From Limnobacter thiooxidans (GTDB lineage: Bacteria > Pseudomonadota > Gammaproteobacteria > Burkholderiales > Burkholderiaceae_B): a stretch of 64,000 bases of DNA. Both the position numbers and the translations under genes were made by a program. Every line of letters begins with the position of its first letter. Position 1 is the first letter of the stretch. Below the pieces are notes generated by a model. The model was given only the letters and a program-made list of their open reading frames with translations. It was not told the DNA's origin and searched no databases. This document shows, piece by piece, positions 19,236 through 54,062 of the stretch. The stretch spans positions 3,410,001 through 3,474,000 of the forward strand of contig NZ_AP028947.1 of the NCBI RefSeq assembly GCF_036323495.1, in the 5' to 3' direction.

Positions 19236-20894
19236 TTATTCGTTGATTTTTTGACTCAGTACCTCTGCGGCTTCTGTAGTGCACACCAGGGCCAGGCGCA
19301 AACGCGCGCGGGTCATGCCCACAAACAAGCGTCGCTTGGTGTTCTCATTCAGCTCATGGAAGTCGATTTCAGAAAGCACAACGCAATTGGCAGAGCGCCC
19401 TTTGAATCGAAACACGGTGTCGACAACAAGGTCACCGTCAGAAAAAATGAAATCACCCTCTGCAGTTCGCCCAACAATTTTCTTGACCCTGTGTTGTGCC
19501 AGTTCATCAAGCTTCAACAGCGCGCTGGATTCGGCGCCTCGAAGGGTCAGTACGACAATTTCATCGGCCGTGTGGCCTTCTTTCAGCAGGTGCGCCACAA
19601 CTGCGGAAGTAGCACTGGCCAATGAAGTTGCATCACCCGCTGTGTAAGTCTCCAGCAAAGTATCCAGACCTTCAACCGCACTTCGGCTGCCAATCGGTTC
19701 TTCAACCAATTCAAGTTGATTGATGATGTCTGTAACAACACGGGGGCAACGGTTACTTACTGGGTGGTCAATGCGAATCCACCCCTCAAAATCGCAAGGC
19801 TCGCGTTCATACAAACGCTGGTTGCTGTCCATCAGGGCAATCAGGCGGCCTTCAGGTGTGCACAGCTTGAACAGGGCTTGCAGCCAAGCCGCTTCAAAGT
19901 CTTGCGCCTCGTCAATGACAAGCACATCGAAACTACCTGCCAGTTCGTGGGCATGGTCCAGAAAATAGTCAACGCTTGCCTGAAACGCGGTAGTACCGGC
20001 TTGGTAAAGGAAACCTTTCGATTCGTAAACCACCCTCGCCATTTCATGGAAGGTGGTGCATGCACTGGCAAGACCTGTGGCTGTTTTCATGTCAACCGCC
20101 AGATTGCGGTTAAAGCACACATACAAGGCCGAGAGACCATTCTGGTGAGCCGTGCGCAATTCATCCAGGGCCAATTGGGTTTTGCCCGAACCTGCGGTTG
20201 CATCAATCAACAATCGAAAGGGTACGCCATGCATCTTGCTGACCCATTCAGACAAGCCAGCTCCCTGTTCGATGTACGCCGATTTCGCCAGTTGCCCGAG
20301 AAACCCGATGTCATAGCGAATTCGCAATCGATTGCCCAGAAAATCCGAGATCAGGTTGATGTCCTGACACGCCTCTTTGTGTGGTGGGCGTTCCTTGAAA
20401 ATATCGAGGATCACATTGGGAAGAACGATTGAATTGTGTTGGTCAACAATGCGATTCACCGGGATACCAGCAGCTGCTTTGTTTTGAACCACGTAGTCTG
20501 GACAGTACACCAGCATGTCAATGTCCAGTTGCTCATGGTTTCGCACATCGCTTCGCGCTTCAAATGCAGCAAGCAAGTTTTCCAGGCTGCGGTTCATTTG
20601 AACAACCACACTCTTGGGCTTGGTGCTGTAAAGCTTGGTGAGCCCCTGTTTGCCTTCCTGTAAGCCACCGTTTTTTTGTTCAATCAACAACAAACGGCCA
20701 AGGGGACTAAGCACAATGAAATCGATTTCCCCCAGAAAAGTCTTGTCGCAATTCTGGGTGGCCCAATGGACCGAATGGAAAACCTTGTAAGTGGGTGGCA
20801 GCGCTTCTGCAAGCCAGGTTGCTGTTTTGTATTCCTCTCGCTTGTTGGCTGGCACAGGGCCAACAAGTTCAGGATGGGGTATCAGTTCTGCCAT
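19236..20894 (-). CDS. NERD-domain superfamily 1 helicase
   Basis: 552 residues. The N-terminal NERD nuclease-like domain has GEIDFI (55-60) and IEQKNG (about 71-76), matching the D...ExK core with Gln in the middle position. Next is a UvrD/PcrA-like helicase: Walker A DATAGSGKT (about 231-239), VIDEAQD (about 323-330), a motif near VFRFKGRSANCVV and the final RLFVGMTRARLRL. It lacks a full-length UvrD insert, so it is a minimal form. It starts 18 bp after the stop of the WYL regulator gene, which suggests one operon. NERD helicases occur in DNA processing and in some defence settings. A defence role here is inference. Confidence 0.88.
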   Translation of the reverse strand: MAELIPHPELVGPVPANKREEYKTATWLAEALPPTYKVFHSVHWATQNCDKTFLGEIDFIVLSPLGRLLLIEQKNGGLQEGKQGLTKLYSTKPKSVVVQMNRSLENLLAAFEARSDVRNHEQLDIDMLVYCPDYVVQNKAAAGIPVNRIVDQHNSIVLPNVILDIFKERPPHKEACQDINLISDFLGNRLRIRYDIGFLGQLAKSAYIEQGAGLSEWVSKMHGVPFRLLIDATAGSGKTQLALDELRTAHQNGLSALYVCFNRNLAVDMKTATGLASACTTFHEMARVVYESKGFLYQAGTTAFQASVDYFLDHAHELAGSFDVLVIDEAQDFEAAWLQALFKLCTPEGRLIALMDSNQRLYEREPCDFEGWIRIDHPVSNRCPRVVTDIINQLELVEEPIGSRSAVEGLDTLLETYTAGDATSLASATSAVVAHLLKEGHTADEIVVLTLRGAESSALLKLDELAQHRVKKIVGRTAEGDFIFSDGDLVVDTVFRFKGRSANCVVLSEIDFHELNENTKRRLFVGMTRARLRLALVCTTEAAEVLSQKINE

Positions 20895-26169: not shown

Positions 26170-29100
26170 TTGCGCCGGTTATTTGGCCTGTTATTTAATC
26201 AACCCTTCAAATGTAAAACAGTGCAAAAACGAGATCAGGAAATTCTGTTTTCCGCATCAGACCTGACGTATTTCGCAGAGTGCAAGCACCGCACCTGGCT
26301 TGACCGTTGCCACCTTGATGCGCCCATGGAAAAAGCCGATGAAACGGATTCCATGCGGCTGATCATGGACAAGGGTCTGGAACATGAAGCCGCGCATTTG
26401 CAAACCCTGAAAGATCAGGGTTTGCATGTAGTTGAAATAAAAACCAAGGAGCTTGACGAACAAGTTCGCCAAACCACCCAAGCCATTGAGGAAGGCGCAG
26501 ATGTGGTGTTTCAGGCCACACTTCGCCGTGGTGCTTACATTGGGCATGCCGACTTTCTCATGCGCACGCCCCACAAAAGCCCAAGCGGGCAGTGGGTGTA
26601 TGACGTGGTGGACACCAAGCTTTCCCACCACACCAAGACAAAATTTCTGGTGCAGTTGTGTTTCTACAGCGACCTGCTGGCCGACATCACTGGGCAACTG
26701 CCAGAACACATTCACGTGGAGCTGGGCAATGGCCAACGCAGCACCTACCGCGTGAACGACTACTTTGCCTATTACCGCAAACTCATGGCTGATTTCGAAG
26801 CTAGCCTGAGCCAGCACACGTTGCAACCTGTCACCTACCCCGACCCCTGCAACTTTTGCAGCATGTGCCACTGGCGTGAACGTTGCGACCAGCAAAGGCT
26901 GGAAGACGACCATTTAAGCCAGGTGGCCAACATCACGAAAACGCAAATCGTGAAACTGGCTTCTATCGGTGTAACAACCATGAAAGGGCTTTCACGACTG
27001 GGTGAAACAGCCAAGGTAAAAGGCATTCAGGAGCCCACCCTGCTTCGCCTTGCCGAACAAGCCGCCCTGCAGGTTCATGAAAAAGAAACTGGCGAGGCCG
27101 TGGTCAAGTGCCTTGGCAATGTGGAAGAAGGTAAAGGGTTCGAGCGCCTGCCCCCGCCCAATGAAGGCGACCTGTTCTTCGACATGGAAGGCGATCCCAT
27201 GTATCCCGAAGGCCTGGAATACCTGTTTGGTGTTTACTTCTTCGAGAATGGCAAGGCAGAATTCAAGGCCTTCTGGGCCCACACACGTACTGAAGAGGGC
27301 CAGGCATTTTCAGACTTCATGAACTTTTTGAATGAACGCCTAACGCGTTACCCACAGGCCCACATTTACCACTACGCCCATTATGAAAAAACAGCCCTGA
27401 AGCGGCTGATGAGCGTGCACGGCCTGCATGAAGATTCTGTCGACAATCTGCTACGCCACCACAAGCTGGTCGACCTGTACAAAGTGGTTCGCGAGGGCTT
27501 GCGGATTTCCAAACCCAGCTATTCAATCAAGCAGGTCGAAAAGTTTTATGGCACCGCGCGTACCGTGGAAGTAACCAACGCGGCCGACTCAATCGTAGTG
27601 TATGAACGCTGGCGGCAAGAACAAGACCCGCAACTGCTTCAAGACATTTACGACTATAACCTCGACGACTGCAAATCAACCTGGGAACTGCGCGAATGGC
27701 TGCTGAAACAACGCCCAGCGCATGCTGCGTGGTTTGATAAAAACAGGGAATTGCCTGGCAAGCCGCTGACCGACAAGCAAATTGAAATGGCTGAGCAACG
27801 TGCGGCCAACCAAGCCGCGCATGAAGCCTACCTGGCTGAGCTGCCAAATCGCCTGGCAAACAGCAAGCACACCGGCCAACTGCCTGAGCAATACAGGCAA
27901 CTGCTTTGCCAACTGATCGATTTCCACAAGCGTGCGGCAAAGCCTGCGTGGTGGGCCATTTTCGAACGCATTGAAGCCGAGCCGGAAGAACTGCTCGACG
28001 ACATGGAAGTGATTGCCAACCTGCAGTTTGCAGACAAACTGGTGGGCGGGAAGATGCCACGCCAAAGCAAGTGGAAATTTCCCGAGCAGGAATTCAAGTG
28101 CAAGGCAGGCGATCAAATCAAGGTACTTGATTCTGAAGCAATGCCCAGCGGAAAAATACTAAGCATTGATGAAGAAAATTGCGAACTGGTGCTGGCCTGC
28201 ACATCATTGCCGTTGAAATATTCAGAGCCTGGTCGAACCATGCACATTTCGGTGGGGGCTCCATTTGATACAACAACAATTGCAGATGCGGTGTGGCGGT
28301 TTGTTGAAAAGGAAATAGACGACGCATCAGAAAAGTCAGCCGTTCGACAATTCCTGCTTCGCCAGCCACCCCGATTCGCCCACAAGAAAGTGGGCGAGGT
28401 TCTGGTTCAACCTGAACAGGAATGCGGGCAAACTACCTTGCAGCAAACCACCGAGCTGATCCGCAACATGGACCACAGCTGCCTGTTTGTGCAAGGCCCA
28501 CCCGGCACCGGCAAAACCTATACCGGCAGCCACGTGATTGCGGAACTGATTCGAAGCGGCAAGAAAGTGGCCATCAGCTCCAACAGCCACAAGGCCATCA
28601 ACAACCTGGTTGAAAAAACAGCGCAGGTTCTGGAACGCATGGGGCAAAGCTTCTACGGCGTCAAAGTATGTAGCACCGATGATCAAGAAGCCTACGGCTT
28701 TGGTATCAGCAACCTCAAGAAAAAAGATCTTTTTGAAGACGAGGCGCTCGCTCCGGAAGAGGCCCCCGACCTGCTTGCAGGCACCGCCTGGCTGTTTTCC
28801 AGTTGGCAGCTAACCGGATGCTTCGACTACCTGTTCATTGACGAAGCTGGCCAGGTGGCCACCGCCAACACCGTGGCCATGGGCCAGTGCGCCGACAACA
28901 TTGTGCTGCTTGGTGACCAAATGCAACTAGGGCAACCCATTCAAGGCGACCACCCCGGCGAAAGCGGATTGTCTACGCTTGAATACCTGCTGGGCCATAA
29001 GGCCACCATACCTCCAGACACCGGTGTGTTTCTTGATCAAAGCTATCGCATGCACCCAAGCGTGTGCAATTACATATCCACCACCTTCTATGAAGGCCGC

Positions 29101-29640
29101 TTGCGGCATGCCCAGCAAACCGAGAACCAAGGCCTGGTTTTAGCCGGACCACTGGCTGACCAATTTTCGGCCACTGGAGTTTATTGCTACCCAGTGATAC
29201 ACGATGGCAATTCGCAAAAAAGTATTGAAGAAGCTGAAGCCATCAACAGGCTTTATGTAGAGCTAATGAAGCAAAGTTTTATTGGGCCAAAAGGTGAAGT
29301 GCTGCCCATAAATGCAGATGAAATTCTGGTGGTCGCACCTTACAACGCGCAAGTCAACCTACTAAAACGAGTGCTTCCTGAAGGAGCGCGAGTTGGTACA
29401 GTAGACAAGTTTCAAGGCCAAGAAGCACAGGTGGTGCTGGTCTCCATGGTGACCTCGAATGAACAACACATGCCAAGGCACTTGGAATTTCTGTTCAGCA
29501 GGAACAGGCTGAACGTGGCTGTTAGCAGGGCAAAAAGCCTGGCCGTTGTGGTGATGAGCCCTGGGTTGGCCGATGTGCGGAGCGAGAAGCCGGAGACTTT
29601 GGGGTTGATCAATACTTTTATTGGGTTGGTAAGTCAGTAG
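26170..29640 (+). CDS. TM0106-type RecB-like nuclease fused to SF1B helicase
   Basis: 1156 residues. The order is: an N-terminal RecB/Cas4-like nuclease (YDVVDTKLSHHTK, with the C-x2-C-x2-C type cluster CNFCSMCHWRERC near residue 230, probably Fe-S); an RNase H-fold exonuclease (FFDMEGDP near 338, DYNLDDC near 500); then a Dna2/UPF1-like helicase with Walker A GPPGTGKT (about 776), DEAGQ (about 890), YRMHP, DKFQGQEAQVV and NVAVSRAK. All motifs are intact. The TTG at 26170 has GGAG at proper distance; GTG at 26221 is an alternative. It probably acts in DNA end processing or repair. It flanks the defence island and may or may not be part of it. Confidence 0.85.
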   Translation: MRRLFGLLFNQPFKCKTVQKRDQEILFSASDLTYFAECKHRTWLDRCHLDAPMEKADETDSMRLIMDKGLEHEAAHLQTLKDQGLHVVEIKTKELDEQVRQTTQAIEEGADVVFQATLRRGAYIGHADFLMRTPHKSPSGQWVYDVVDTKLSHHTKTKFLVQLCFYSDLLADITGQLPEHIHVELGNGQRSTYRVNDYFAYYRKLMADFEASLSQHTLQPVTYPDPCNFCSMCHWRERCDQQRLEDDHLSQVANITKTQIVKLASIGVTTMKGLSRLGETAKVKGIQEPTLLRLAEQAALQVHEKETGEAVVKCLGNVEEGKGFERLPPPNEGDLFFDMEGDPMYPEGLEYLFGVYFFENGKAEFKAFWAHTRTEEGQAFSDFMNFLNERLTRYPQAHIYHYAHYEKTALKRLMSVHGLHEDSVDNLLRHHKLVDLYKVVREGLRISKPSYSIKQVEKFYGTARTVEVTNAADSIVVYERWRQEQDPQLLQDIYDYNLDDCKSTWELREWLLKQRPAHAAWFDKNRELPGKPLTDKQIEMAEQRAANQAAHEAYLAELPNRLANSKHTGQLPEQYRQLLCQLIDFHKRAAKPAWWAIFERIEAEPEELLDDMEVIANLQFADKLVGGKMPRQSKWKFPEQEFKCKAGDQIKVLDSEAMPSGKILSIDEENCELVLACTSLPLKYSEPGRTMHISVGAPFDTTTIADAVWRFVEKEIDDASEKSAVRQFLLRQPPRFAHKKVGEVLVQPEQECGQTTLQQTTELIRNMDHSCLFVQGPPGTGKTYTGSHVIAELIRSGKKVAISSNSHKAINNLVEKTAQVLERMGQSFYGVKVCSTDDQEAYGFGISNLKKKDLFEDEALAPEEAPDLLAGTAWLFSSWQLTGCFDYLFIDEAGQVATANTVAMGQCADNIVLLGDQMQLGQPIQGDHPGESGLSTLEYLLGHKATIPPDTGVFLDQSYRMHPSVCNYISTTFYEGRLRHAQQTENQGLVLAGPLADQFSATGVYCYPVIHDGNSQKSIEEAEAINRLYVELMKQSFIGPKGEVLPINADEILVVAPYNAQVNLLKRVLPEGARVGTVDKFQGQEAQVVLVSMVTSNEQHMPRHLEFLFSRNRLNVAVSRAKSLAVVVMSPGLADVRSEKPETLGLINTFIGLVSQ

Positions 29641-30101
29641 GCTCGATAAATGAATTTTATTTCTATTGATTTAGCCTAGCCCTCCGCTAATTTCTTTGGA
29701 GGAACACGGTGAATAAAACCTTAATTCTGCATTCAGCACTTCAATAATTTATTTAGAAAATTAGGTACTCTGGGTAAAACTATGCAGATTGCACCTTAAG
29801 CTTTTGTGTGACTTAAGTTAACCGCTGACTACACCGCCTGTCATTTATGGAAAGAGAAGAGCCACTAGGTTGGATCTATCGAGGTCAGTTCACAACTAGC
29901 CCCCAAATGACATGATCAATTATTACAGCGTCGAGTCCACGTTTAATACGGTGAAATCCTGTCTTTTTTGGACCGTCTTTTGAATTGCACTGAATACGGG
30001 CTTATCTGGTCAATGTAAAAGATCCATGAAACCAGCACGATGACAAGTACTCAGAAGACTGTTCAATAAACAATAAAATTGTTATTTTTAGGGAGATGCT
30101 T
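29641..30101. other. Non-coding region before the sigma/Z1 operon
   Basis: About 460 bp without a credible gene. AACAAT (30069-30074) and ATTGTT (30078-30083) form a small perfect inverted repeat just ahead of the ribosome-site-like AGGGAG at 30090. This is a plausible operator or promoter area for the operon. Short protein-like strings on either strand between 29800 and 30000 are broken by stops, and I could not assign them. Confidence 0.4.
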
Positions 30102-30311
30102 TTGAAAATAAAATTTAGCGGGCATCTCATCCAGATTTTTCGTAACTTTTTGGGCGGTAATGAACCTTTATTGACCATAGCCCCCTTATGTTGGTCGTTG
30201 CAGTTCCTTTTAGGTTATCGAAAAGAATTTCGATTTGATACGCTCATTTTTTTAATTTCCCGTTCTAGGCCTCAAGTTTCTAGCGACTTTGGTTCTCATA
30301 TTCATTTGTGA
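30102..30311 (+). CDS. Possible small leader ORF of the sigma/Z1 operon
   Basis: 69 codons from a TTG at 30102 that has AGGGAG 6 nt upstream, the best ribosome site in this stretch. An ATG at 30096 would sit too close to it. Its TGA stop shares a base with the ATG of the sigma fusion (TGATG), which fits translational coupling. The product is moderately hydrophobic with basic patches (FRNFLGG, LLGYRKEFRFDTLIFLI) and resembles nothing I know. It may be a leader peptide or a tiny regulator, or an accidental ORF. Confidence 0.3.
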   Translation: MKIKFSGHLIQIFRNFLGGNEPLLTIAPLCWSLQFLLGYRKEFRFDTLIFLISRSRPQVSSDFGSHIHL

Positions 30312-32881
30312 TGAAGCTTAACCCTCTTTTTAAACTATCAATTATCTCTGGGGTTGAGGCCGCGATAAAGCTTCATATTCTTAGAGGTGATGATCCAAAT
30401 GCCAGAGATGGAACGGGAGCTACTCCGTTGATTCTTGCCGCCGCTAGGGGCCGTGCAGGGGCTATTCGCCTTTTGCTGAACGCTGGAGCAAATCCGAAAC
30501 TTGAAGATCAAGACGGAATGGACGCAATGGCTCACGCCATGAGGCATGGGTGTAAAGAAACAATTGAACTTCTCAGGGCCACTGGGGTAAGTGTCATAAC
30601 AGATTCGCAGCTTTTGTATCCGGCTGTTGTGACGAACCAACCTGATACCCCATACCTTGTTGCGAATGAAAAAATGGTGGCTTTTCGTAGCGAAATAGCT
30701 GACCTGCAAGTCCCAACTTTAACTCCTTCTTCAACTGACTCTGGAGTTGAAGAAAATATTGCTGGATTGGTAAATCCTTTGATAGAGCCATCCGCCTTAA
30801 ACTCGGATTCGTCTTGTAAAACGCCAGCCCCCCCTTCGAGCACTTGCGCCGCAAACGAAGTTCTCCTGTTCGACGACGAACCACTCCAAGACATTTTCAG
30901 TGATGATTGGGAAGCAGAGAAAGAAGTTTCGGTTCCTGAAGGAGATGAGACGGTTGTCAGAGGCTCCCGACAGGTTCATGAGAGTATTGGTCGACATAAC
31001 GCTATAAATCGAGACGAAAACTGGGATGATATAGATCTCTTCCTACCATCAAGATCGACTCCCCTTTCCCTTGATCAGAGTAATGATTCTTTCAGAAATC
31101 TGTTGCTGTTCGCACTACACGAAGGATGTGTTTCCGAAGAGGCCATTATTGATGCTGGATTGAACTCAGATGGCAGTCGGAATAAAGAAGCTGAGAGGCT
31201 TCTGACATTTGTTGCCGGAGAGTTAGGAGCGACAGTCGTGGATTGGATCGGTTTAAGCGGTCCTTATCAGATTGAACCCACTACTGCAGAGGAGCACATC
31301 CTGTTGGAAGCGACTCAATTTTTTGAGGAGCTTGCTTCCGGTCGGAATGATCCTTTCCGCTTTTATTTGAAAGAAATACGTGAAGACCTTCTTGGTGCAG
31401 AAGATGAGATCAGATTGGCTAGGGAGATGGAGGAGGCTGGTCGAGAGGCTATGTCTGCCCTTGCTCAATGGCCCGTCGGTTTATCAGTGATTTTCGACGC
31501 AGCAACCCGCGTGGCCAGAAGGGAAGCAGACGCAGGATATTTTTGCAGTGGGCATGAGTCGTCTTCCGAAGTCGAGTCTCCTTTGATACCGATCATCGAC
31601 GACGTCGACGAAGAGGATGAAAACACGGGTATGAATGAAGAAGCCTTGTTTTTCGTGAACACAGTTGCGGATATTGAGAGGATGAAAAGTGATACCAGCA
31701 AGGTCACTGAGTCCTTGGTGAAACTATGCCTTACCCGAGCTTTTCTTACAGAATTACAAGAAAAAGCAAACACTTCAGGAATCTCACAACAGTTTATTTC
31801 GGCTCTCAATCGTCAGGCAAAAGCCAGAGATCGCATGATACTTGCCAACCTTCGACTTGCTTTGTCCATCGCGAAAAAGTATCTCTGGTCAGAAATGCCC
31901 TTTGATGATTTGGTCCAAGAGGCGAATGTAGGTCTCATGAAGGCTGTAGACCGCTACGACTGGCGCAAGGGTTTCCGATTCTCAACCTACGCAACTTGGT
32001 GGATCAGGCAAAAAATCACCCGGAGCATTGCCGACAACGGCAGGGTGGTCAGAGCGCCTGTCCACATTCAGGAAACATCTCGAACACTGTTACGCGAGAG
32101 ATCCGCAGTGGAAGCAGGTTTGGGTCGTCCCGAATCGGAGTATGAAACTTCGCGACGTATCGGAATGTCTATTTCAAAAACACGCCTGATCCTATCAGTT
32201 TTCGATGAAGTGGAATCACTGGACGAGGTGGACCCAGCAACAGGTTTCTCAAGAATTGAGGGGTTGACGGACTTGTTAACTCCCAACCCAGCAGAGGCTG
32301 CCGAGCTTTCTTCATTAAGATCCACCCTGTTGAGCCTACTCGATGAATTGGATGAGCGAAGCAGGGAGGTACTCCTTCTGCGCTTTGGCCTGATGAGAGA
32401 CGAAGCCATGACTCTGGAGGAGGTTGGGCAGCACTACTCAGTGACACGGGAGCGAATCAGGCAAATTGAATCTAAAGCGATGCGTAAACTTTCACATAGG
32501 ATCAAACGGGGGATCCTTTGGCCCTTCATGGGCGATGAATTCGCACCGAAAGAGAACAGGGAGCCATCATTAACGGATAAACAATCAAACACTGAGACCA
32601 AGTCAGACCTGAATCCGATTAGTGAGCGAGAGTCTGTAGAGACTGAAACAGAAACTTCAAATAATTTTGAGCAACCTGAGTCGCCTCACATTGCAATCCC
32701 TAAGTCGGATCTTGTCGAACAAGCGTTAAAGCTCGGTTTGAAAGTAGACGATCGACGAAAGGATGGAGGGAGACTTTCCATCCTTGTGCCTTATGTATCT
32801 ACTCCAAAGATAAGAGCATTTGGTCGCAAGCTTCTCGACTCGGGTTTCCAAAGAAATAGAAACGACATTTTCGAGATATGA
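30311..32881 (+). CDS. Ankyrin-repeat / sigma-70 fusion protein
   Basis: 856 residues. Two ankyrin repeats cover about 27-92 (GATPLILAAARGRAGAIRLL, GANPKLEDQDGMDAMAHAM). A linker and a region-1.1-like acidic helical part follow (about 255-320). Region 1.2 starts DPFRFYLKEI (about 347). An acidic non-conserved stretch (DDVDEEDE) comes next. Region 2 contains NLRLALSIAKKY, FDDLVQEANVGLMKAVDRYD and the promoter-melting RFSTYATWWIRQKITRSIAD (about 560-580). Region 4 has LEEVGQHYSVTRERIRQIE (about 710-730). Regions 2 and 4 are near the primary-sigma consensus, so promoter preference should be RpoD-like. The last 60 residues form an extra domain similar to the ZorC tail. The stop overlaps the ATPase start (ATGA). 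GTG at 30308 is an alternative start. Confidence 0.85.
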   Translation: MKLNPLFKLSIISGVEAAIKLHILRGDDPNARDGTGATPLILAAARGRAGAIRLLLNAGANPKLEDQDGMDAMAHAMRHGCKETIELLRATGVSVITDSQLLYPAVVTNQPDTPYLVANEKMVAFRSEIADLQVPTLTPSSTDSGVEENIAGLVNPLIEPSALNSDSSCKTPAPPSSTCAANEVLLFDDEPLQDIFSDDWEAEKEVSVPEGDETVVRGSRQVHESIGRHNAINRDENWDDIDLFLPSRSTPLSLDQSNDSFRNLLLFALHEGCVSEEAIIDAGLNSDGSRNKEAERLLTFVAGELGATVVDWIGLSGPYQIEPTTAEEHILLEATQFFEELASGRNDPFRFYLKEIREDLLGAEDEIRLAREMEEAGREAMSALAQWPVGLSVIFDAATRVARREADAGYFCSGHESSSEVESPLIPIIDDVDEEDENTGMNEEALFFVNTVADIERMKSDTSKVTESLVKLCLTRAFLTELQEKANTSGISQQFISALNRQAKARDRMILANLRLALSIAKKYLWSEMPFDDLVQEANVGLMKAVDRYDWRKGFRFSTYATWWIRQKITRSIADNGRVVRAPVHIQETSRTLLRERSAVEAGLGRPESEYETSRRIGMSISKTRLILSVFDEVESLDEVDPATGFSRIEGLTDLLTPNPAEAAELSSLRSTLLSLLDELDERSREVLLLRFGLMRDEAMTLEEVGQHYSVTRERIRQIESKAMRKLSHRIKRGILWPFMGDEFAPKENREPSLTDKQSNTETKSDLNPISERESVETETETSNNFEQPESPHIAIPKSDLVEQALKLGLKVDDRRKDGGRLSILVPYVSTPKIRAFGRKLLDSGFQRNRNDIFEI

Positions 32882-34374
32882 CGATGAAAATCAGATACGC
32901 CCCCCCGAAGGCAGGGGCGATGATGGAAGCATTGCGGGGCCTTGGATATTCAACTTCCGCAGCCTTGGCAGACGTGGTGGACAATTCCATATCTGCTGGT
33001 GCCACTCGGGTTCACCTTGACTTCCATTGGAAGAATTCAGAGAGCAGGATTTCAATACTTGATAACGGGTGCGGTATGAGTGACCCGGAACTTGAAGCAG
33101 CGATGACGCTGGGAGTACTTAATCCACTTGATGAAAGGGCTCCGAACGACCTTGGACGTTTTGGTCTAGGGCTGAAAACAGCATCCTTTTCTCAATGCCG
33201 CAGTCTTACAGTTGCTTCAAAGCGTATAGGACAGGAGATAGTTTGTCTGCGTTGGGATCTGGACGCCATAGCTTCCGATCCTGAGGGTGGTTGGCGTATG
33301 TATGAGGGGCCCGCAGTCGGCTCCGAGAGTTTTATCGAACCTCTTGCTGAAATGAGTTCAGGCACTATCGTTCTCTGGGAAAAGATGGACAGGGTGGTCA
33401 CACCAGGATCTGATCTGAACCATTTTGCAGATCTGGCTGATGATGTCGAATTACGTCTCGCCATGATCTTCCATCGTTTGCTTGAAGGATCTAATCCAGA
33501 TTTCCAACTGTATATGAACAGCAGGCCAGTTCAACCCTGGGATCCGTTCATGACAGGACATCCCGCTAAGGCTATGGAATCTCCTGTTGAGCGCAGAAAT
33601 ACTCCCTCTGGCATCCTAGAGGTTCAGTGTCATGTGCTTCCTCACAAGGACAAGCTTTCTGAAGATGAGTTTACTAAAGCGGGCGGTCCTGAAGGTTGGA
33701 CATCTCAGCAGGGCTTTTATGTTTACCGTAACAAACGTCTGCTTCTGGCGGGTGGATGGCTTGGGCTTGGCCGAGGACGTGCCTGGAATCGTGAAGAATC
33801 TCATCGTCTGGCGCGTATCAGGATAGAGATTCCGAACTCCGCGGATGCTGACTGGAAAATCGATGTACGTAAGTCCACAGCGCGTCCACCGGTTTTTGTG
33901 CGGAACTGGCTTACCGGCCTGGCCGAGAATACCCGGGATAAGGCCAGGAAGGTCTTTGCATTTCGAGGTTCAACCATACAGGGGCCCGGTGGAGCACCGA
34001 TTGACCAGGCCTGGCATGTTGAACACCTTCGCAGCGGGCTCCGTTATCGTATTCATCAGGGACACCCCGCAGTGGCTGCAGTTATCGAGGCGTGCGGAGA
34101 GCGACAGGACTTGGTCAAGGCGATGCTTCGCGTAATAGAAGAAACTGTTCCTGTTCAGCGTATTTGGCTCGATACGGCTGAGAACAAGGACACGCCCAAA
34201 ACCGGGTTTGATGGCGAACCCAATCAGTCAGTTATTGAGGTCGCAACCGTACTATTCGAGGACTTGCTTACCCGGAAGGGTTTAAGTCCGGACGAAGCGC
34301 GAAAGGCAATGCACAGAACAGAACCATTTCAGAAATATCCAACATTGATCGCAAATCTGGGGAGATCCGAATGA
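32878..34374 (+). CDS. GHKL (MORC/MutL-like) ATPase of Z1 restriction-like operon
   Basis: 498 residues. The GHKL ATP-binding fold fills the N-terminus: an N-box-like ADVVDNSISAGA (31-42), DNGCGM (62-67) and GRFGLGLKTASFSQ (93-106). The position normally holding the catalytic Glu in MutL/Hsp90 N-boxes appears as Asp32. The rest has no obvious nuclease motif and probably forms the transducer and dimer regions. Comparative genomics has linked such MORC/MutL-like ATPases to restriction-type loci with Z1 proteins. ATGA overlaps join it to both the sigma gene and the Z1 gene, so the three are translated together. Confidence 0.88.
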   Translation: MTMKIRYAPPKAGAMMEALRGLGYSTSAALADVVDNSISAGATRVHLDFHWKNSESRISILDNGCGMSDPELEAAMTLGVLNPLDERAPNDLGRFGLGLKTASFSQCRSLTVASKRIGQEIVCLRWDLDAIASDPEGGWRMYEGPAVGSESFIEPLAEMSSGTIVLWEKMDRVVTPGSDLNHFADLADDVELRLAMIFHRLLEGSNPDFQLYMNSRPVQPWDPFMTGHPAKAMESPVERRNTPSGILEVQCHVLPHKDKLSEDEFTKAGGPEGWTSQQGFYVYRNKRLLLAGGWLGLGRGRAWNREESHRLARIRIEIPNSADADWKIDVRKSTARPPVFVRNWLTGLAENTRDKARKVFAFRGSTIQGPGGAPIDQAWHVEHLRSGLRYRIHQGHPAVAAVIEACGERQDLVKAMLRVIEETVPVQRIWLDTAENKDTPKTGFDGEPNQSVIEVATVLFEDLLTRKGLSPDEARKAMHRTEPFQKYPTLIANLGRSE

Positions 34375-37280
34375 GTATTACTCAAGATAACAATACTCAG
34401 ACAGAGTTGTTGGAGAACGTTATCGCCACTGCACAGCGCTTGGTGAAGGCCGAGAAAGACAAGTCAAGAGTTACACCAGCGTTCATTGCTGAAAAGGTCG
34501 CACTTGCAACATTCATGTTTGCTAGCGACACACCTGAAATGGTTGACGAGCAACATGCTGTCATGGTCCTGATTCAGCGTTTCAGCCATAGGATCGGCAA
34601 ATCCACGACGATGAAAAGTGACGCCGGTCACGTGGATTGGCTTGTTTCTTCGCGAAAACGTGATTGGTTATACTGGCGCCGATACAGGGACTTTCTGGAG
34701 TCGAAGCTCGCTGATGTAGTGGTGGATGGCGTGGACGAAGCTACTGACGATATCCTGCGACTCCTTGAGGATCCTCGAAGAACGGACCCATGGGATCGGC
34801 GAGGTTTGGTTGTCGGACATGTGCAATCTGGAAAGACCAGTAATTACTCGGGACTGATCTGCAAAGCTGCTGACGCTGGCTACAAGATCATCATTGTACT
34901 TGCCGGAATGCACAACAATCTGCGCTCGCAAACTCAGATGCGGTTAGAGGAAAGCTTTCTTGGCTATGAAACGACTGCCAATCGAGATCCGGGCATGCCT
35001 ATAGGAGTTGCCGAGTTTGGAGAGAACCTGAAGACCAACTCTGCGACCACTCGTGCAGAAAATGGCGATTTCAGCAAAGCGATTGCCAAGCATTTTCACG
35101 GCATATCTCCGGAAGAACGTCCTTGGCTTTTCGTTGTAAAAAAACAGAAAACCGTTCTGACAGCCCTCCTGCAATGGATCAAAACCCGCGTCGCAGACTC
35201 CACTGATGCAGAGGATGATAGAAAGCTTGTAACCAAACTTCCTCTTCTGATGATTGACGACGAAGCTGACAACGCATCCGTTGATACGGGAGAACAAGTT
35301 TTCAAGGATGATGGTACTCCGGATGAGGAACACCAGCCGAAGACCATCAACAGCCTCATTCGCCAGATACTTCATGCTTTCACGAGAAAAGCATATGTAG
35401 GCTATACCGCTACTCCATTCGCGAATATTTTTATTCATCACAAGGGCGCTACTGCAAAAGAAGGGCCTGATCTTTTTCCCCGCTCATTCATCATAAACCT
35501 TGCCGCTCCTTCAAACTACATTGGTCCTGCCCGGATGTTTGGGAAGATGACCAAGGAAGGTAGAACGGCAGCACTGCCATTAGCCAGGGATATTCTGGAT
35601 CATTATGATCCAGCTTCGGATTCGGGCTGGATGCCACCCAAACATAAAAAGACTCATCAACCTCTTTATGGAGGTGAAGATGAAGTTCCGCCTTCACTAC
35701 GGCAGGCCATAGGCTCATTCGTTCTTGCTTGCGCAGTCCGTGAGCTTAGGGGGCAGGGAGGTCAGCATAGCTCCATGCTGATTCACGTTACCCGATTCGT
35801 CGATGTCCAGGACCATGTGCGAGAACAGGTGGAAAAAACCGTACGTCAAATGCGACAGCGAATTTCGCGTAGATTGGGTGCAGAGGAAGCACTTGAACAT
35901 CTGCATCAGATCTGGGAGAACGATTTCCTTCCTGTTCACCAACAGGTCACAGGTCTTTCCGCAGAGGTGGATCGGCCTTCCCCGATGCCTGACTGGGAGC
36001 AAATAACCACTGTTCTGGCAGACGTTCTTGAAGACATTCAGGTTCGTTCCATCAATGGAACAGCCAAGGATGCATTGGACTATGCAATACCCGGCGCAGC
36101 TTTGAAAGTTATCGCGATAGGCGGCGACAAACTCGCTCGAGGTCTTACACTAGAAGGCCTCTGTGTCAGTTATTTTGTACGCTCCACTAAAATGTACGAT
36201 ACGCTCATGCAGATGGGTCGCTGGTTCGGCTATCGTCCGGGTTATCTTGATTTGTGCAGACTCTATACCTCTCCTGATCTTGTGGAATGGTTCGGTCATA
36301 TTGCAGATGCATCTGAGGAGCTGCGTGAAGAGTTTGACTTTATGGCAGCAGCGAATCTTACGCCGGAGCAATATGGCCTTAAAGTGATGTCTCATGAGGT
36401 GCTGACCGTAACATCCCCATTGAAAATGCGGAACGCTCAAACGCTTTCACTTTCCTACAGTGGAACACGGCCTCAGACCATCCTTTTCCATCGCGATGCC
36501 CAGATACAGCAAAAAAATCTTGATGCCACAGACACACTCATTTCATCGTTAGGTGAAGGATGGGAAGAATCTATCCAGTATGGGCGTGATGGGGATCCTG
36601 ACCGCTGGCCTGGAGCTCGTTTGTGGAAGGATGTGGATTATTCGAAAGTTGTAGAGTTCCTCGGCACTTACACTACGCATCCGAATGCGAGTAGCGCCAA
36701 AGCGGCGGTATTGTCTGAGTTCATCTTGAAGATGGTCGAAACTGGGCAACTTAAAAAATGGAGCGTCGCACTGCTGAGTGGAGGAAGCGGGACAGGGGAT
36801 GTTCACACTTTCCCGAACGGTACCCCGTCCACAAGCTACTTCATGCGAAAGACTGAAGACTCTGAGAATGCCGATGAAATTGATCCAAAAAAGTTTGCGA
36901 TCGGGGTATTAACTGACCCAAAAGACGAGGGGATTGATCTTGGTGACGACGCTTGGCGCGAGGCTTTGACTCTGACTCGCGCAGCTTGGAAGCGTGATGA
37001 TGCAAGGAAACGTGTCGACCCTCCCAGCTTTCCGAGTGGTAAAGGTATCCGGGAGATTCGAGGAAAGCTCGGGGGTGAAGCCGATCGAGGTCTTTTGCTG
37101 TTGTACCCACTTTCACCCTATTTCTACAAAGGTCAGCATCCCGAGCGTCTGATCGTTCCTGGATGGAGTAAGCCAATCATGGCGTTTGCCACCGCCTTTC
37201 CTGCCAGCGATAACTCGATCAAAGTAGCGTACGAAGTTAATCTTCTTTACTGGATGCAGGAATATGGCCCGACCGAGTAA
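34371..37280 (+). CDS. Z1-domain ATPase/helicase-like protein
   Basis: 969 residues. Walker A GHVQSGKTSN (149-158) and a Walker B/DEAD-like MIDDEAD (about 293-300) are followed by VGYTATPFANIF (about 341-352), a motif III-like element. The Z1 domain is marked by GGDKLARGLTLEGL and MQMGRWFGYRPGYLDLC (about 610-626), the most characteristic stretch of the family. The fold is SF2-helicase-like. In related loci it is thought to move on DNA or drive a nuclease, but nobody can read that from sequence. It overlaps the ATPase gene by 4 nt and the PD-(D/E)XK gene by 17 nt. Confidence 0.92.
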   Translation: MSITQDNNTQTELLENVIATAQRLVKAEKDKSRVTPAFIAEKVALATFMFASDTPEMVDEQHAVMVLIQRFSHRIGKSTTMKSDAGHVDWLVSSRKRDWLYWRRYRDFLESKLADVVVDGVDEATDDILRLLEDPRRTDPWDRRGLVVGHVQSGKTSNYSGLICKAADAGYKIIIVLAGMHNNLRSQTQMRLEESFLGYETTANRDPGMPIGVAEFGENLKTNSATTRAENGDFSKAIAKHFHGISPEERPWLFVVKKQKTVLTALLQWIKTRVADSTDAEDDRKLVTKLPLLMIDDEADNASVDTGEQVFKDDGTPDEEHQPKTINSLIRQILHAFTRKAYVGYTATPFANIFIHHKGATAKEGPDLFPRSFIINLAAPSNYIGPARMFGKMTKEGRTAALPLARDILDHYDPASDSGWMPPKHKKTHQPLYGGEDEVPPSLRQAIGSFVLACAVRELRGQGGQHSSMLIHVTRFVDVQDHVREQVEKTVRQMRQRISRRLGAEEALEHLHQIWENDFLPVHQQVTGLSAEVDRPSPMPDWEQITTVLADVLEDIQVRSINGTAKDALDYAIPGAALKVIAIGGDKLARGLTLEGLCVSYFVRSTKMYDTLMQMGRWFGYRPGYLDLCRLYTSPDLVEWFGHIADASEELREEFDFMAAANLTPEQYGLKVMSHEVLTVTSPLKMRNAQTLSLSYSGTRPQTILFHRDAQIQQKNLDATDTLISSLGEGWEESIQYGRDGDPDRWPGARLWKDVDYSKVVEFLGTYTTHPNASSAKAAVLSEFILKMVETGQLKKWSVALLSGGSGTGDVHTFPNGTPSTSYFMRKTEDSENADEIDPKKFAIGVLTDPKDEGIDLGDDAWREALTLTRAAWKRDDARKRVDPPSFPSGKGIREIRGKLGGEADRGLLLLYPLSPYFYKGQHPERLIVPGWSKPIMAFATAFPASDNSIKVAYEVNLLYWMQEYGPTE

Positions 37281-38286
37281 TGAATTCATCCTTGCATGGT
37301 CATCGTTGGTTTCTGAAGATGAATCCTCTGGCTGGCAGGCCATTTCCCTGCCTCCTGCGGGTCCTATTGATATTCAGGCGGGGCGACGTTTTCCGGACAA
37401 CACAGAAGCAGTGCTTTTCTGTTTTCCAACTATAAGCTTGCCCCGATCCGAAAAATTGCCAGAAGGCAAGGGATTCCTCGTGGAAAGAACCCAACTCTCA
37501 GTCCACGATGGTTTGTGTCTCGCTCTTACCCGTCAGCAAGAGGGAAGTCCGGATTTATTCGCATCAATGGTTTGTGATGTGGTTGGTGCCATGGACGACG
37601 CATCGGATAACACGGCTTCAGAGACTTCCTTCTTGCGGATATTCTTGGGGCGAGTTCGTGCCTGGCAACAGTTCATGTCGCGGGGGGCAGGTCCTCTTAG
37701 TACTGAAGCTGAGCTGGGTCTGGCAGGGGAGCTCTACTTCATGAAGCAATTCCTTGATGCCGGGGTTGCTCCAATGACTGCTCTTAATGGGTGGGTCGGG
37801 CCTGATGATGCCCCACAGGATTTTCTTCTCGGCGAGGGGGCCGTCGAAGTCAAGGCGACCATGTCTTCGTCAGGTTTTCCGGTCAGGATTGGGTCTTTGG
37901 AGCAACTGGATGATAGCGTCACTTCACCTCTATTCCTCGCCGCTGTGCGATTCGCAAGATCCGAGGTGGGCGCAACGCTCCCCGATTTGATTGCCCAAGT
38001 CACGCAGCGACTTGAAACTGAACCGGGGGGAGTGGAGCTACTGAGGGAGCGTCTTATGTTGGCTGGTTATTTTTCTATCCATGAAGGACATTACTCTCGG
38101 AAATTTGAACCGAAAGAAAAAAGGATGTTCTTGGTAACCAGGGATTTTCCCCGCCTCACGCCTGGGACTGTTCCTCTTGGTGTGACCAAGGCGCATTACG
38201 AACTCAACCTGGATCATGTTGCGGATTATTTTCGTGATTTCAGCGTGATCCTCTCTCAGCTAGGAGTAATGAATGACTCTCGATGA
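37264..38286 (+). CDS. PD-(D/E)XK-motif protein of Z1 operon
   Basis: 340 residues matching the family of PD-(D/E)XK-motif proteins found beside Z1 genes. DFLLGEGAVEVKAT (about 185-199) is the nuclease core, with Asp, then Glu-Val-Lys. An upstream Glu-rich helix region (TEAELGLAGELYFM) supplies the conserved Glu of helix A. It is the most likely cutting subunit of the system. The ATG at 37264 lies within the Z1 gene, and the 3' end overlaps the AIPR start by 14 nt, so the genes are coupled. Confidence 0.85.
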   Translation: MARPSNEFILAWSSLVSEDESSGWQAISLPPAGPIDIQAGRRFPDNTEAVLFCFPTISLPRSEKLPEGKGFLVERTQLSVHDGLCLALTRQQEGSPDLFASMVCDVVGAMDDASDNTASETSFLRIFLGRVRAWQQFMSRGAGPLSTEAELGLAGELYFMKQFLDAGVAPMTALNGWVGPDDAPQDFLLGEGAVEVKATMSSSGFPVRIGSLEQLDDSVTSPLFLAAVRFARSEVGATLPDLIAQVTQRLETEPGGVELLRERLMLAGYFSIHEGHYSRKFEPKEKRMFLVTRDFPRLTPGTVPLGVTKAHYELNLDHVADYFRDFSVILSQLGVMNDSR

Positions 38287-40051
38287 TTTCTTCGAGGAAA
38301 CACGTGGGGAGATAGCCTCTCTAATGAGTGAGGGTGCCCCCTTCGCAGAACTGGTTTTCTGTGAGGTCGTCATGCAGCACTTGGTCGACGCCGGTATGAC
38401 GTTCGAGCCTGTTGTGTGTCATTTCCAGGGTAAAGTTGGAACTTCCAATCTGCGGCTAAGTGGCTACGCTCTCTCTGATGACGCAGATCAGCTTGATCTT
38501 TTTGTGAGTCTGTATGGTGGCTTTGAAAGCCTGGCCCCCATTCAGGATCAGGATTCGAAAACTGCAGCCCAACAGTGTGTGCGGTTTCTTGAGCTTTGCG
38601 CAGCGGGACGACTTGCAGACAAACTGGATCCGTCCAGCGACTCTCATTCGCTCGCCCTTACTATCAGGGAAATTTACGACAGGCTTGATCAGGTGAGGGT
38701 GTTCGTTCTAACAGACGGTGTGGCCAAGTCAAAGAGTTTCAAGCCGCGCGAGGTGGGGGGTAAATCCGTCCGTCTCGAAGTAATGGATATTGAGCGACTT
38801 TTCCGACACCGTTCCGAGGGTAAGCCGCGCGATGAGTTGGTTGTGGATTTCAACGAGGTTTCAGGATCGCCACTACCCTGTGTCTTTGTACCGGGAGAGA
38901 CCGGGGACTATGACTATGCACTTACCGCAATACCGGGTGAAGCCTTACGTCATATCTATGAAAAATTTGGCCCTCGTCTTCTAGAAGCCAACGTGCGCTC
39001 TTTTCTGAGTGTAAAAGCCAGAGGTGTTAACGCGGGAATTCAAGGTACTTTAAGAAGCGCGCCGGAGCGATTCATGGCATTCAATAATGGCATCGTATTG
39101 GTAGCTGATGAGATGAAGCTTGCGCGCGCTGAGGATGGCTCGCCCGGCATAATCTGGCTCCGGGGTATGCAGGTCGTCAACGGAGGGCAGACTACCGCAT
39201 CAATCTATTTTGCCAAGAAAAAGTACCCAGATACGGACCTTAGTAAGGTACGAGTCCCCGCGAAAATCATAGTCATGAAGGAGGCTGATCCGGCTAAGGA
39301 AGAGGCTTTGGTCTCTGATATTTCGCGCTTCGCAAACTCCCAGAATGCGGTACGTCAGTCTGATCTTTCTGCAAATAAACCATTTCACATCGAAGTCGAG
39401 CGATTGTCGTTATCGATATATTGCCCAGATGGTGTGGGTCGCTGGTTCTATGAGCGCGCTGCAGGAAGTTACAACACGCTTCTGTCAAGAGAAGGTACCA
39501 CAGCAGCCAAACTGAAGGCATTGAAGGAATCTGTACCAGCATCCCGGAAAATAACCAAAACGGAGTTGGCCAAATACCTGATGGCGTGGGATATGAGACC
39601 CGACATTGTCAGCCTTGGAACTCAGAAGTGTTTCGATCGCTTCATGACTGGCTTGAGTGACATTGAAGCTGAGGGAAATTCTGTAGTACCTGATACAGCT
39701 TTTTTCAAGGCTCTTGTTGCCAAGGCCATCATATTCAAGGCAGTTCACAAAACAGCTCGTCCATTGGTTTCTGCATTCCTGGCCAACGTGGCTGCTTACA
39801 CTGTTTCAGTGGTAGCAGCCTCGTATCGGGAAAGTTTTGACCTTGAGAGGGTTTGGCGTAATCAGGGCGTGTCAATTCAATTTCTTGAGCAGGTCGAGAT
39901 CTGGGCGAGAGAGGTGAACGAAAGATTGCATCAAACCGCAAACGGTAAGATGATTTCAGAATGGGCAAAAAAGCCTGAATGCAGGGATGCCATTTTTTTC
40001 CGTCCTTTTTCCTCACCATCCTTGAATATTCCTGAAGTTCCTCAAGGTTAA
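38273..40051 (+). CDS. AIPR-family protein of Z1 operon
   Basis: 592 residues. AIPR (abortive infection phage resistance) hallmark blocks are present: RFMAFNNGIVLVADE, then WLRGMQVVNGGQTTASIY, both near the middle. The family has been implicated in phage resistance, although its biochemical role is not known to me. The ATG at 38273 has AGGAG 6 nt upstream, one of the strongest ribosome sites in the operon. It is followed after 3 nt by the Vsr gene. In this operon it may sense or effect the response. Confidence 0.88.
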   Translation: MTLDDFFEETRGEIASLMSEGAPFAELVFCEVVMQHLVDAGMTFEPVVCHFQGKVGTSNLRLSGYALSDDADQLDLFVSLYGGFESLAPIQDQDSKTAAQQCVRFLELCAAGRLADKLDPSSDSHSLALTIREIYDRLDQVRVFVLTDGVAKSKSFKPREVGGKSVRLEVMDIERLFRHRSEGKPRDELVVDFNEVSGSPLPCVFVPGETGDYDYALTAIPGEALRHIYEKFGPRLLEANVRSFLSVKARGVNAGIQGTLRSAPERFMAFNNGIVLVADEMKLARAEDGSPGIIWLRGMQVVNGGQTTASIYFAKKKYPDTDLSKVRVPAKIIVMKEADPAKEEALVSDISRFANSQNAVRQSDLSANKPFHIEVERLSLSIYCPDGVGRWFYERAAGSYNTLLSREGTTAAKLKALKESVPASRKITKTELAKYLMAWDMRPDIVSLGTQKCFDRFMTGLSDIEAEGNSVVPDTAFFKALVAKAIIFKAVHKTARPLVSAFLANVAAYTVSVVAASYRESFDLERVWRNQGVSIQFLEQVEIWAREVNERLHQTANGKMISEWAKKPECRDAIFFRPFSSPSLNIPEVPQG

Positions 40052-40054: not shown

Positions 40055-40516
40055 GTGACTGATATTGTTGACCCAGCTACCAGAAGCCGAATGATGTCTG
40101 GTATCCGGGGGGTGGATACCAAGCCAGAGCTTATTGTGCGCAAAGCGCTTTTTGCCTCTGGTTTCCGGTTCAGATTGCACAGGAAGGACTTACCTGGACG
40201 CCCTGATATCGTCCTTCCAGGGCGCCAGGTAGCAATATTCGTACATGGATGTTTCTGGCATGTGCATCAAGGTTGCCGGTACGCAAAAACGCCTGCTTCG
40301 CGTAAGGAGTTCTGGGAAGTCAAACTTGCAGCCAACGTAGCTCGCGATTCAGCCAAAAGGGATGCACTACTTTTGAAGGGGTGGCGTGTACTGATAGTTT
40401 GGGAATGCGCAACGCGCTCCATTTCCGTAAAGGAATTATTACCCGATTTGCTGAAAGACTGGATGGAAGGCAGCCGCACTACTGGTGAGATCGATTCAGG
40501 CTCCACGTTTCCATGA
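40055..40516 (+). CDS. vsr: Very short patch repair endonuclease (Vsr)
   Basis: 153 residues. RSRMMSGIRGVDTKPE (about 10-25), LPGRPDIVLPG with the catalytic Asp, VHGCFWHVHQGC with zinc ligands, and the FWEVK block are complete Vsr signatures. Vsr nicks next to T:G mismatches formed when 5-methylcytosine deaminates, protecting methylated sites from mutation. The pairing with the convergent C5-methyltransferase is the usual arrangement. A GTG start with AAGG 7 nt upstream follows the AIPR stop by 3 nt. Its last 38 bp overlap the end of the methyltransferase gene. Confidence 0.95.
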   Translation: MTDIVDPATRSRMMSGIRGVDTKPELIVRKALFASGFRFRLHRKDLPGRPDIVLPGRQVAIFVHGCFWHVHQGCRYAKTPASRKEFWEVKLAANVARDSAKRDALLLKGWRVLIVWECATRSISVKELLPDLLKDWMEGSRTTGEIDSGSTFP

Positions 40517-42050
40517 ATCTCGAGACCACCTCAGCGATTTTTTGTGCGAGAAGTGGAGGGACGGCGTTACCAACCTGAGTGTACTGCTCTGTACGGTTAC
40601 CAGCGAAGAAATAATTATCCGGGAAAGTCTGCAGTCGCGCAGCCTCCCTGACTGTGAGACTTCTGCATTGTGAGGGATCAGGGTGAATGAAGTAATGCCC
40701 GTCTTTCGCGATGTGAGAGACTACTGTTGAAGACCATGAGTCAGCCAACTGAACTCTGAAACGGTCTACGAAGGGAACCTTGATTGAAGATACGTTTCCG
40801 TGATTCGGAAGTAGCGGTCTGGGGAAGTCTGCAATTTTCGGTGAGTACTTGTGAACTTTGCCATACGCTGCAGTAAACATGTAACGGTTCAGGTCTGAGC
40901 GCATGTGCGAGCGAGTATCGTGTTGAATGACTCCTCCGAGACGAGCGTCGGAAAACCATTCCTTTAATCCATTTTGCAATTGATTATCTGAAAGCTCGTA
41001 GCGTAAGAAGTTTCCACCAGTAGATGCGTGATGCCTTGCTTCTTTGACAGCTAATCCAATTTCCCTGAAAACCGGTTCAATGTAATCGGAGCGGTAGAAT
41101 TGAATCTTATCCTGCGTCTCAGCCAAGGCAGAGAGCCATTGCTGGTGACCATCGGTTTCTTTCGATAATTTGCTTCTGAGTTTCGGCAGATCAGAAAGTG
41201 TCTGCCCAACAGTTACATGCGCTTGCTCCGCGTTCAGGATGAACTTCTCTGGCGAACAAGTTATCGCTGGTACTGACCGCGCCACGTCAGAGCGAATCCC
41301 GAAGAGGATAACTCTATGCCTACCCTGTGGCACACCGAAACGTTCCGCCGCTATTACAAAGTCGTGCGGTGCTATCTCACCGGCAACGCCCGGCTTCACA
41401 AATGAATGAATCTGATATTCGAGGTCATCGCCAGGTTTGGAAAGATCAGCCACGATTTTCTCGAATATAGAGGTACCCCCGTGTTTCGATGACAGCATGC
41501 CTTTCACGTTTTCCATGATGAATACAGCTGGCTTGTGAGCGCGGATGATTCTCAAATATTCTTTGTAAAGAAAATGCTTCTCATCACTTTCGAATTTTTC
41601 GAGTGATTCACGAGTCCGTCTTGAACGACCGGCTACAGAGTATGCCTGGCAGGGCGGCCCCCCGATCAGAACCCAGTCGTCAGCCCCGGCAAGAGCGGTC
41701 CTGATCCGAAAATCCAAGTCTTCAGGATTGTCTTTACCAAGTTCGAAGTTACGTGCCTCCTCCAAAGCTTCACGAGCAGCCTCTTCGGTATCCGGATGTC
41801 CAAACAGCTCATCACGTGAAATCTCGCCACGAATATGTTCGTAGTAGCAATCAGGCACCTTGCCGGGCGAGAATTTCCTATATAGGGAACGAAGGGAAAG
41901 CGTTTTATGCGCAATCGGGTCCTTTTCTGCAGACAACTTTAGGGAGAAACGGGGAGAGCCAGCAGAGTCTAGGATTGATGAAAAACCCTCTCCTAGACCC
42001 CCAGGCCCAGCAAAAAGATCAATTACCAGGATGGGTTTGCGTAGGGTCAT
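40479..42050 (-). CDS. DNA (cytosine-5-)-methyltransferase
   Basis: 523 residues with C5-methylase motifs in order: I DLFAGPGGLGEGF near the start, IV GGPPCQAYS with the catalytic Cys, VI MENVKGM, VIII QGRHRVILFG-like, and X GNAVPPLLAQKIA near the end. It probably methylates the recognition site that the ATPase/Z1/PD-(D/E)XK set would otherwise attack. The target recognition domain lies between motifs VIII and IX, and its sequence does not show me the site. It faces the rest of the operon and must have its own promoter in the 400-bp region upstream. It is a good marker of self-protection. Confidence 0.93.
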   Translation of the reverse strand: MTLRKPILVIDLFAGPGGLGEGFSSILDSAGSPRFSLKLSAEKDPIAHKTLSLRSLYRKFSPGKVPDCYYEHIRGEISRDELFGHPDTEEAAREALEEARNFELGKDNPEDLDFRIRTALAGADDWVLIGGPPCQAYSVAGRSRRTRESLEKFESDEKHFLYKEYLRIIRAHKPAVFIMENVKGMLSSKHGGTSIFEKIVADLSKPGDDLEYQIHSFVKPGVAGEIAPHDFVIAAERFGVPQGRHRVILFGIRSDVARSVPAITCSPEKFILNAEQAHVTVGQTLSDLPKLRSKLSKETDGHQQWLSALAETQDKIQFYRSDYIEPVFREIGLAVKEARHHASTGGNFLRYELSDNQLQNGLKEWFSDARLGGVIQHDTRSHMRSDLNRYMFTAAYGKVHKYSPKIADFPRPLLPNHGNVSSIKVPFVDRFRVQLADSWSSTVVSHIAKDGHYFIHPDPSQCRSLTVREAARLQTFPDNYFFAGNRTEQYTQVGNAVPPLLAQKIAEVVSRFMETWSLNRSHQ

Positions 42051-48094: not shown

Positions 48095-48822
48095 ATGAAG
48101 CATTTCTCTTCAGTAGAATCGGAGAACTTGGCGTCTAACTCAGGATTCAAATCTTCCCGCTCTTTTAAGCCATAAAATTGAAGCCTCAGCTCAACGCGTC
48201 GACTGGCGTCTTTGGTGGACTTGGAGTTGTTAAATGCAACACCGCCAGCTAGAAAAAGTTTTTTAATCTGTATTTTCTGGTCTGGATCAAGCCTTAACTT
48301 CAGTGCGTTTTTATCACCGATCAAGGTACACATCACCCATTCCGAGCGACGAAGACTCAGGTTCAAGTTGTACAGGTAGGAGCCATCAGTATCCGTAAAA
48401 CCCTCAATCAATACTTGTTTAAACCACTTGTTACCAACTTCACTGTTGGCTGCCTGAAGGATCAAGGGCACCACATCTAACAGTGCGTTCTCGCCATCCG
48501 AGCTCAACTTAAACTGACCAGTACCAAAGCGGCCCGCCTCTCCGAAATTGATGCGGTTGTCTTTACAATCAATTTGAATAACTTTATTTTTCAAGTCTGC
48601 ATTATTGGCGAGTTCCCGGCACAGATCACTAATTTCGGAGACACGTTGCTCCTCATCTTGGGTGGCCTCACGAATTTTCTGAGTAACAAGAACAAGAGAT
48701 GTAACCATGATGACCAGAAAAAGAATCATCAATGCGGTCATCAGATCAGCGTAGGAAATCCAGAAGGGTTTTTCTCCCTCCTCTCTTGACCTACCCGGCG
48801 GTGCAGCTTTGTTACTTAACAT
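48091..48822 (-). CDS. zorB: Zorya ZorB, MotB-like stator subunit
   Basis: 243 residues. The single N-terminal membrane helix follows FWISYADLM, in which Asp26 is the conserved proton-path residue. A short linker leads to an OmpA/MotB-like peptidoglycan-binding domain (IEGFTDTDGSYLYNLNLSLRR region). ZorB pairs with ZorA to form a proton-driven motor anchored to the cell wall, which senses phage entry. It starts 14 bp after the zorA stop. Confidence 0.93.
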   Translation of the reverse strand: MLSNKAAPPGRSREEGEKPFWISYADLMTALMILFLVIMVTSLVLVTQKIREATQDEEQRVSEISDLCRELANNADLKNKVIQIDCKDNRINFGEAGRFGTGQFKLSSDGENALLDVVPLILQAANSEVGNKWFKQVLIEGFTDTDGSYLYNLNLSLRRSEWVMCTLIGDKNALKLRLDPDQKIQIKKLFLAGGVAFNNSKSTKDASRRVELRLQFYGLKEREDLNPELDAKFSDSTEEKCFI

Positions 48823-48836
48823 GGGAGCCTTCTATG

Positions 48837-53965: not shown

Positions 53966-54062
53966 GACTGGCCTGCCTTGAACACTGGGCAGCACAGGAT
54001 GGGGTAGTGCAGGCTCACAGGATGAGCTTGTGGGACCTCTGTTTTGCGGAAGGTGCGGGCGC

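Follow-up and report, generated by a model that had tools for sequence, protein, structure and literature searches.

We analysed a 64,000-nucleotide window of the Limnobacter thiooxidans genome (contig NZ_AP028947.1, positions 3,410,001 to 3,474,000), in which a gene encoding an ankyrin/RpoD-like sigma-70 fusion leads a five-gene operon (Table 1). The five proteins were compared with the models for the MZA system (mzaABCDE) in NCBIfam (NF041931-NF041935) and PADLOC (PDLC02203-02207). Each has its own Mza model as the best match in both libraries, with PADLOC E-values, in gene order, of 6e-59 for MzaA, 8e-183 for MzaB, 9e-304 for MzaC, 2e-63 for MzaD and 4e-210 for MzaE, and the set mzaA-B-C-D-E is complete, in order and on one strand. 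None of the five window proteins reaches the NCBI equivalog naming cut-off (score/cut-off: MzaA 472/800, MzaB 724/850, MzaC 1185/1500, MzaD 338/420, MzaE 898/1050). None of the 369, 398 and 399 genomes searched at class, phylum and order level has an MzaC that passes its cut-off, which therefore singles out close relatives of the reference. Judged by its sequence, the window operon is a divergent MZA-type system and not an NCBI equivalog. Its gene content and gene order are those of the MZA reference, including an ankyrin/sigma-70 MzaA; it differs from the reference in its scores, in a ZorC-like tail that extends past the end of the MzaA model, and in the adjoining genes for a Vsr-type endonuclease and a C5 methylase.

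The MzaA model NF041931 alone is not specific, as RpoD also obtains about 470-480 bits on it. The window protein scores 472 on NF041931 and 287 on the best RpoD model, whereas the genome's own RpoD scores 468 and 907, respectively; because the two contrasts are opposite, we assign the window protein to MzaA and not to RpoD. Its alignment with NF041931 covers residues 2 to 742, including the ankyrins. The MzaA of another operon (L067, 11918-14404, minus strand) scores above the NCBI RpoD cut-off (614 vs 555) and may be named RpoD automatically.

The window gene encodes a divergent MzaA, the known sigma factor at the head of MZA operons, and is not new in kind. The earlier observation is thus confirmed in part, and its interpretation finds partial support. 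The initial annotation had considered a dedicated sigma factor unfamiliar in described defence systems; MzaA is, however, already a named part of MZA, and NCBIfam names the first protein of the operon "MZA anti-phage system associated sigma-70 family RNA polymerase sigma factor MzaA". In PMC9523054, mzaA is called "a sigma factor", and most of the related systems described there are without it. The words "sigma" and "ankyrin" are absent from the main text of PMC2292703, and no functional account or test of MzaA's role was found in the literature searched. Another antiviral system with a sigma factor of its own is CalpL/T/S (PMC11417357). Its CRISPR-associated CalpS is an extracytoplasmic function sigma factor held by an anti-sigma factor and freed by a protease. 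MzaA, in contrast, is RpoD-like and carries ankyrins, and no anti-sigma factor or protease was recognised among the scanned operon proteins.

Table 1. Features of the window (positions in the window; residue numbers are those of MzaA)
Feature	Position	Strand	Remarks
NERD-domain helicase	19236-20894	-	PADLOC reverse-transcriptase-associated NERD helicase model, E 1e-16
TM0106-type RecB-like nuclease	26170-29640	+	RNase H-like and helicase domains; 0.67-kb gap upstream of mzaA
mzaA	30311-32881	+	Ankyrin/RpoD-like sigma-70 fusion, 856 amino acids
Ankyrin repeats	30323-30595	+	Residues 5-95; Pfam Ank_2, AlphaFold model
Sigma region 1.2	31349-31435	+	Residues 347-375; Pfam
Sigma region 2	31838-32044	+	Residues 510-578; most core-binding and -10 recognition residues kept
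Sigma region 4	32336-32494	+	Residues 676-728; -35 recognition helix intact
C-terminal domain	32699-32878	+	Residues 797-856; resembles ZorC tail
mzaB	32878-34374	+	GHKL/MutL-like ATPase; ATGA overlap with mzaA
mzaC	34371-37280	+	Third of five genes matching Mza models in order
mzaD	37264-38286	+	DUF4420 PD-(D/E)XK
mzaE	38273-40051	+	AIPR
Vsr-type endonuclease	40055-40516	+	Adjoins MZA operon
C5 cytosine methyltransferase	40479-42050	-	Recurrent MZA neighbour
Type I Zorya operon	43092-51338	-	Complete; beside MZA operon
zorD	43092-46370	-	
zorC	46370-48103	-	
C-terminal stretch of ZorC	46370-46573	-	Resembles MzaA tail
zorB	48091-48822	-	
zorA	48837-51338	-	
VIT/VWA protein	51839-54109		Beside AbiE pair
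AbiEi/AbiEii	54063-55680	-	Toxin-antitoxin pair

Architecture and contact residues of MzaA

The 18 MzaA proteins of the mapped MZA operons were all scanned with Pfam; 12 of them also stand in a 20-row alignment (A1) together with seven other MzaA and RpoD. Every one of the 18 has ankyrin matches as well as sigma regions 2 and 4, and so have the other seven MzaA of the alignment; there, Ank_2 matches 19 of the 20 rows, RpoD being the only row without it. Regions 2 and 4 of the window MzaA exceed the Pfam cut-off. An AlphaFold model of the single chain (81 sequences, mean predicted local distance difference test score (pLDDT) 77) starts with a confident ankyrin block (residues 5-90 above pLDDT 90). 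Residues 100-197 form a disordered linker and residues 254-310 a small helical domain; the sigma body spans 325-742 and is loose at 418-438. The C-terminal domain (797-856) is again modelled with confidence, and searches returned no significant match for it among solved folds. The fusion of ankyrins to sigma-70 and the extra C-terminal domain were both predicted by the initial annotation and are borne out by the Pfam matches (ankyrins and regions 1.2, 2 and 4) and by the model, respectively. A region-1.1-like segment had been proposed as well; homology to region 1.1 was not supported. MzaA resembles the group 1/2 sigma-70 factors (RpoD, RpoS, SigA) in regions 1.2, 2 and 4 and in the contact residues, and differs from them in its ankyrin N-terminus, the lack of a detectable region 1.1, its tail, its fast divergence and its place in a defence operon.

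Retention of the RpoD residue was compared across 19 MzaA between 26 positions (Escherichia coli sigma-70 numbering), which we take to contact core polymerase or promoter, and 206 other positions; random position sets, rather than RpoD-conserved non-contact residues, served as the control. The RpoD residue is kept in 87% of cells at the 26 positions vs 42% at the others, and none of 20,000 random sets matched the retention of the contact positions. Among the eight -35 positions listed, seven have the RpoD residue in all 19 MzaA and the remaining one, E574, has it in 17; D403, Q406, F427, W434, Q437, R441, R451 and H455 are likewise kept in all 19, and the poorly kept residues are R423 (9/19), Y425 (4/19) and M413 (11/19). 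The window MzaA has the RpoD residue at 24 of the 26 positions, differing at 423 and 425. MzaA retains the residues required for binding RNA polymerase and promoters. The reading that we prefer, at somewhat less than an even chance, is that MzaA would function as a sigma factor and carry an ankyrin sensor that can be exchanged; the analysis shows its identity, architecture, restriction to one clade, divergence with one exchange, and retained contacts, and both the sigma activity and the sensing are inferred from these.

Distribution and divergence of MzaA

Gene maps were made for 52 loci holding MzaC, and a tree of MzaC was built by a quick method with branch support from the Shimodaira-Hasegawa-like approximate likelihood ratio test (SH-aLRT) only, without bootstrap. 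In all 18 loci with MzaA, the fusion gene immediately precedes mzaB on the same strand. The overlap of the mzaA stop with the ATPase start noted in the initial annotation (ATGA) is present in the window, and with the longest frames the two genes overlap in 15 of the 18 loci, the remaining gaps being 2, 7 and 10 bases; RefSeq starts instead give gaps of 50 (L094) and 47 (L095) bases. The 18 loci and L100, whose contig extends only 2.2 kb upstream of MzaC, form one MzaC clade (SH-aLRT 99), with the window MzaC inside. MzaA was found at none of the 33 loci outside the clade, all of which have 3.7 kb or more of sequence upstream of MzaC, and no loss was seen in any of the 18 testable clade rows. 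An RpoD-like sigma factor was taken up in one lineage of the compared operons, without visible loss. That MzaA is a dispensable regulator we consider improbable, this complete retention being unusual for a dispensable gene.

The C5 methylase is present in 14 of the 19 clade loci (13 by phmmer, L094 by annotation), as is Vsr, and phmmer finds the methylase at 30 of the 33 loci outside; the five clade loci without it each lie near a contig end, no more than 4.5 kb from mzaC in one direction. In L065 and L066, a 39-base block conserved at 36 of 39 positions, with an extended -10-like element, lies between the divergent C5 methylase gene and mzaA. At the sister locus L081, outside the clade, a gene on the other strand beside the operon encodes a 905-amino-acid protein whose region 4 is RpoD-like (Pfam 31.2 bits, cut-off 24.1) and which also matches the alpha C-terminal domain, below cut-off; Pfam detects neither region 2 nor ankyrins in it, and phmmer found no similar region 4 at the other loci outside the clade. 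Another sister operon without MzaA, L097, has a large upstream gene (6035-7741, plus strand) whose product has an N-terminus that is caspase-like by eye and HEAT repeats below the Pfam cut-off.

MzaA is the fastest-changing part of the compared MZA operons, a result that is new here, as are the ankyrin exchange, the retained contacts and the resemblance of the tail to ZorC. It is the least conserved of the compared genes in 152 of 153 operon pairs (L077 and L101 having been entered without D and E), the sole exception being L095/L096, in which MzaD is lower. Between the window and L068, for example, MzaC is 78% identical and MzaA 33%. This agrees with PMC10924106, which lists mzaA among defence genes with a high mutation frequency irrespective of environment. 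L076 and L079 share 88% identity in MzaB, 93% in MzaC, 86% in MzaD and 87% in MzaE; within MzaA, the sigma part is 66% and the ankyrin part 26% identical, and the ankyrins of L079 are 55% identical to those of the window. The DNA identity of the pair steps from about 47% to 79% at L076 5114-5414, inside mzaA. We read this as an exchange of the ankyrin block together with its upstream DNA, one clear case and not a survey.

Fast change is expected for a part under attack, and every MzaA scanned has RpoD-like regions 2 and 4. MzaA could be a decoy or guard, mimicking sigma-70 so that a hit by a phage anti-sigma or sigma-appropriation protein triggers MzaB-E. We regard this as quite unlikely: a decoy could do without the residues that touch DNA, yet MzaA conserves them much better than the other parts of the sigma body, and the clearest exchange hits the ankyrins, not the sigma part.

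The C-terminal tail and possible roles of MzaA

The MZA operon lies in a defence island with a type I Zorya system, AbiEi/AbiEii, a NERD helicase and a TM0106-type nuclease-helicase. A hidden Markov model (HMM) of MzaA tails finds the tail in 6 of the 18 operons (the window, L068, L080, L099, L101 and L102). PADLOC ZorC models match the tails of the window (E 6.5e-5), L068 (1.6e-7), L101 (1.5e-5) and L102 (6.6e-5), and gave no match for the L080 tail or for full-length P0024, P0106 and P0111. The ZorC of the window itself ends in a stretch similar to the MzaA tail. Aligned by hhalign with this end, the six MzaA tails give a probability of 97%, and BLAST with the L068 tail gives 46% identity over 37 columns (E 1e-8 for this single comparison). 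The HMM of MzaA tails alone reaches the window ZorC only at E 0.0048, and BLAST with the window's own tail did not find it. Common to ZorC and some MzaA are about 60 C-terminal residues ending LGF-Y-PGKG-W, with no Pfam model match in either protein; the remainder of ZorC differs, being an EH_Signature protein without sigma domains. At the same end, where others have the tail, the MzaA of L076 (4825-7257, plus strand) has a GcrA domain (Pfam 64.6 bits). GcrA binds DNA and sigma-70.

A review (PMC12904381) describes how ZorC, together with ZorD, is recruited to bind injected phage DNA and degrade it. MzaA might be a subunit of an effector complex that ties MzaB-E to polymerase at the promoters of incoming DNA; the nucleases would reach freshly transcribed DNA, and transcription would not be the output. 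The resemblance of the tail to ZorC argues for this, as do the invariable position of mzaA directly upstream of mzaB, the GcrA domain, the retention of both core and DNA contacts, and the region-4 gene without region 2 that adjoins the L081 operon. The tail, however, occurs in a minority of the operons and hence is not essential to the system, and we hold such polymerase-guided targeting to be possible but somewhat unlikely.

Several points weigh against the preferred reading of MzaA as a working sigma factor. The branch of L076, L078 and L079 has changed at several core and -10 positions, and the kept contacts could reflect descent from RpoD together with structural need. The ZorC-like tail is no less compatible with a structural role in a nuclease complex than with a regulator. 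A protein of the L081 type could touch promoters or polymerase, and would hardly act as a sigma factor; for this gene we moved a very small part of our weight from the working sigma factor to polymerase-guided targeting. Promoter searches also gave no support for the earlier suggestion that the sigma factor switches on its own operon: no shared motif was found upstream of mzaA, a scan of 17 upstream regions for extended -10 elements gave a lowest P of 0.09 against shuffles, and positions 29500-30400 of the window hold 1 promoter-like site vs 1.9 expected.

A more specific scheme, which is speculative and in our view unlikely as a whole, is that the ankyrin and ZorC-like ends would bind MzaB-E and the sigma body would dock on promoter-bound polymerase, aiming restriction at newly transcribed foreign DNA; the ankyrins would face the phage and be swapped as a cassette, and the tail would be a module common to MZA and Zorya. 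The ZorC-like tail connects MZA with Zorya in a concrete way that no family model used here labels. Given the fixed contacts and the exchangeable ankyrins, the question of why a nuclease system needs a sigma factor is directly testable.
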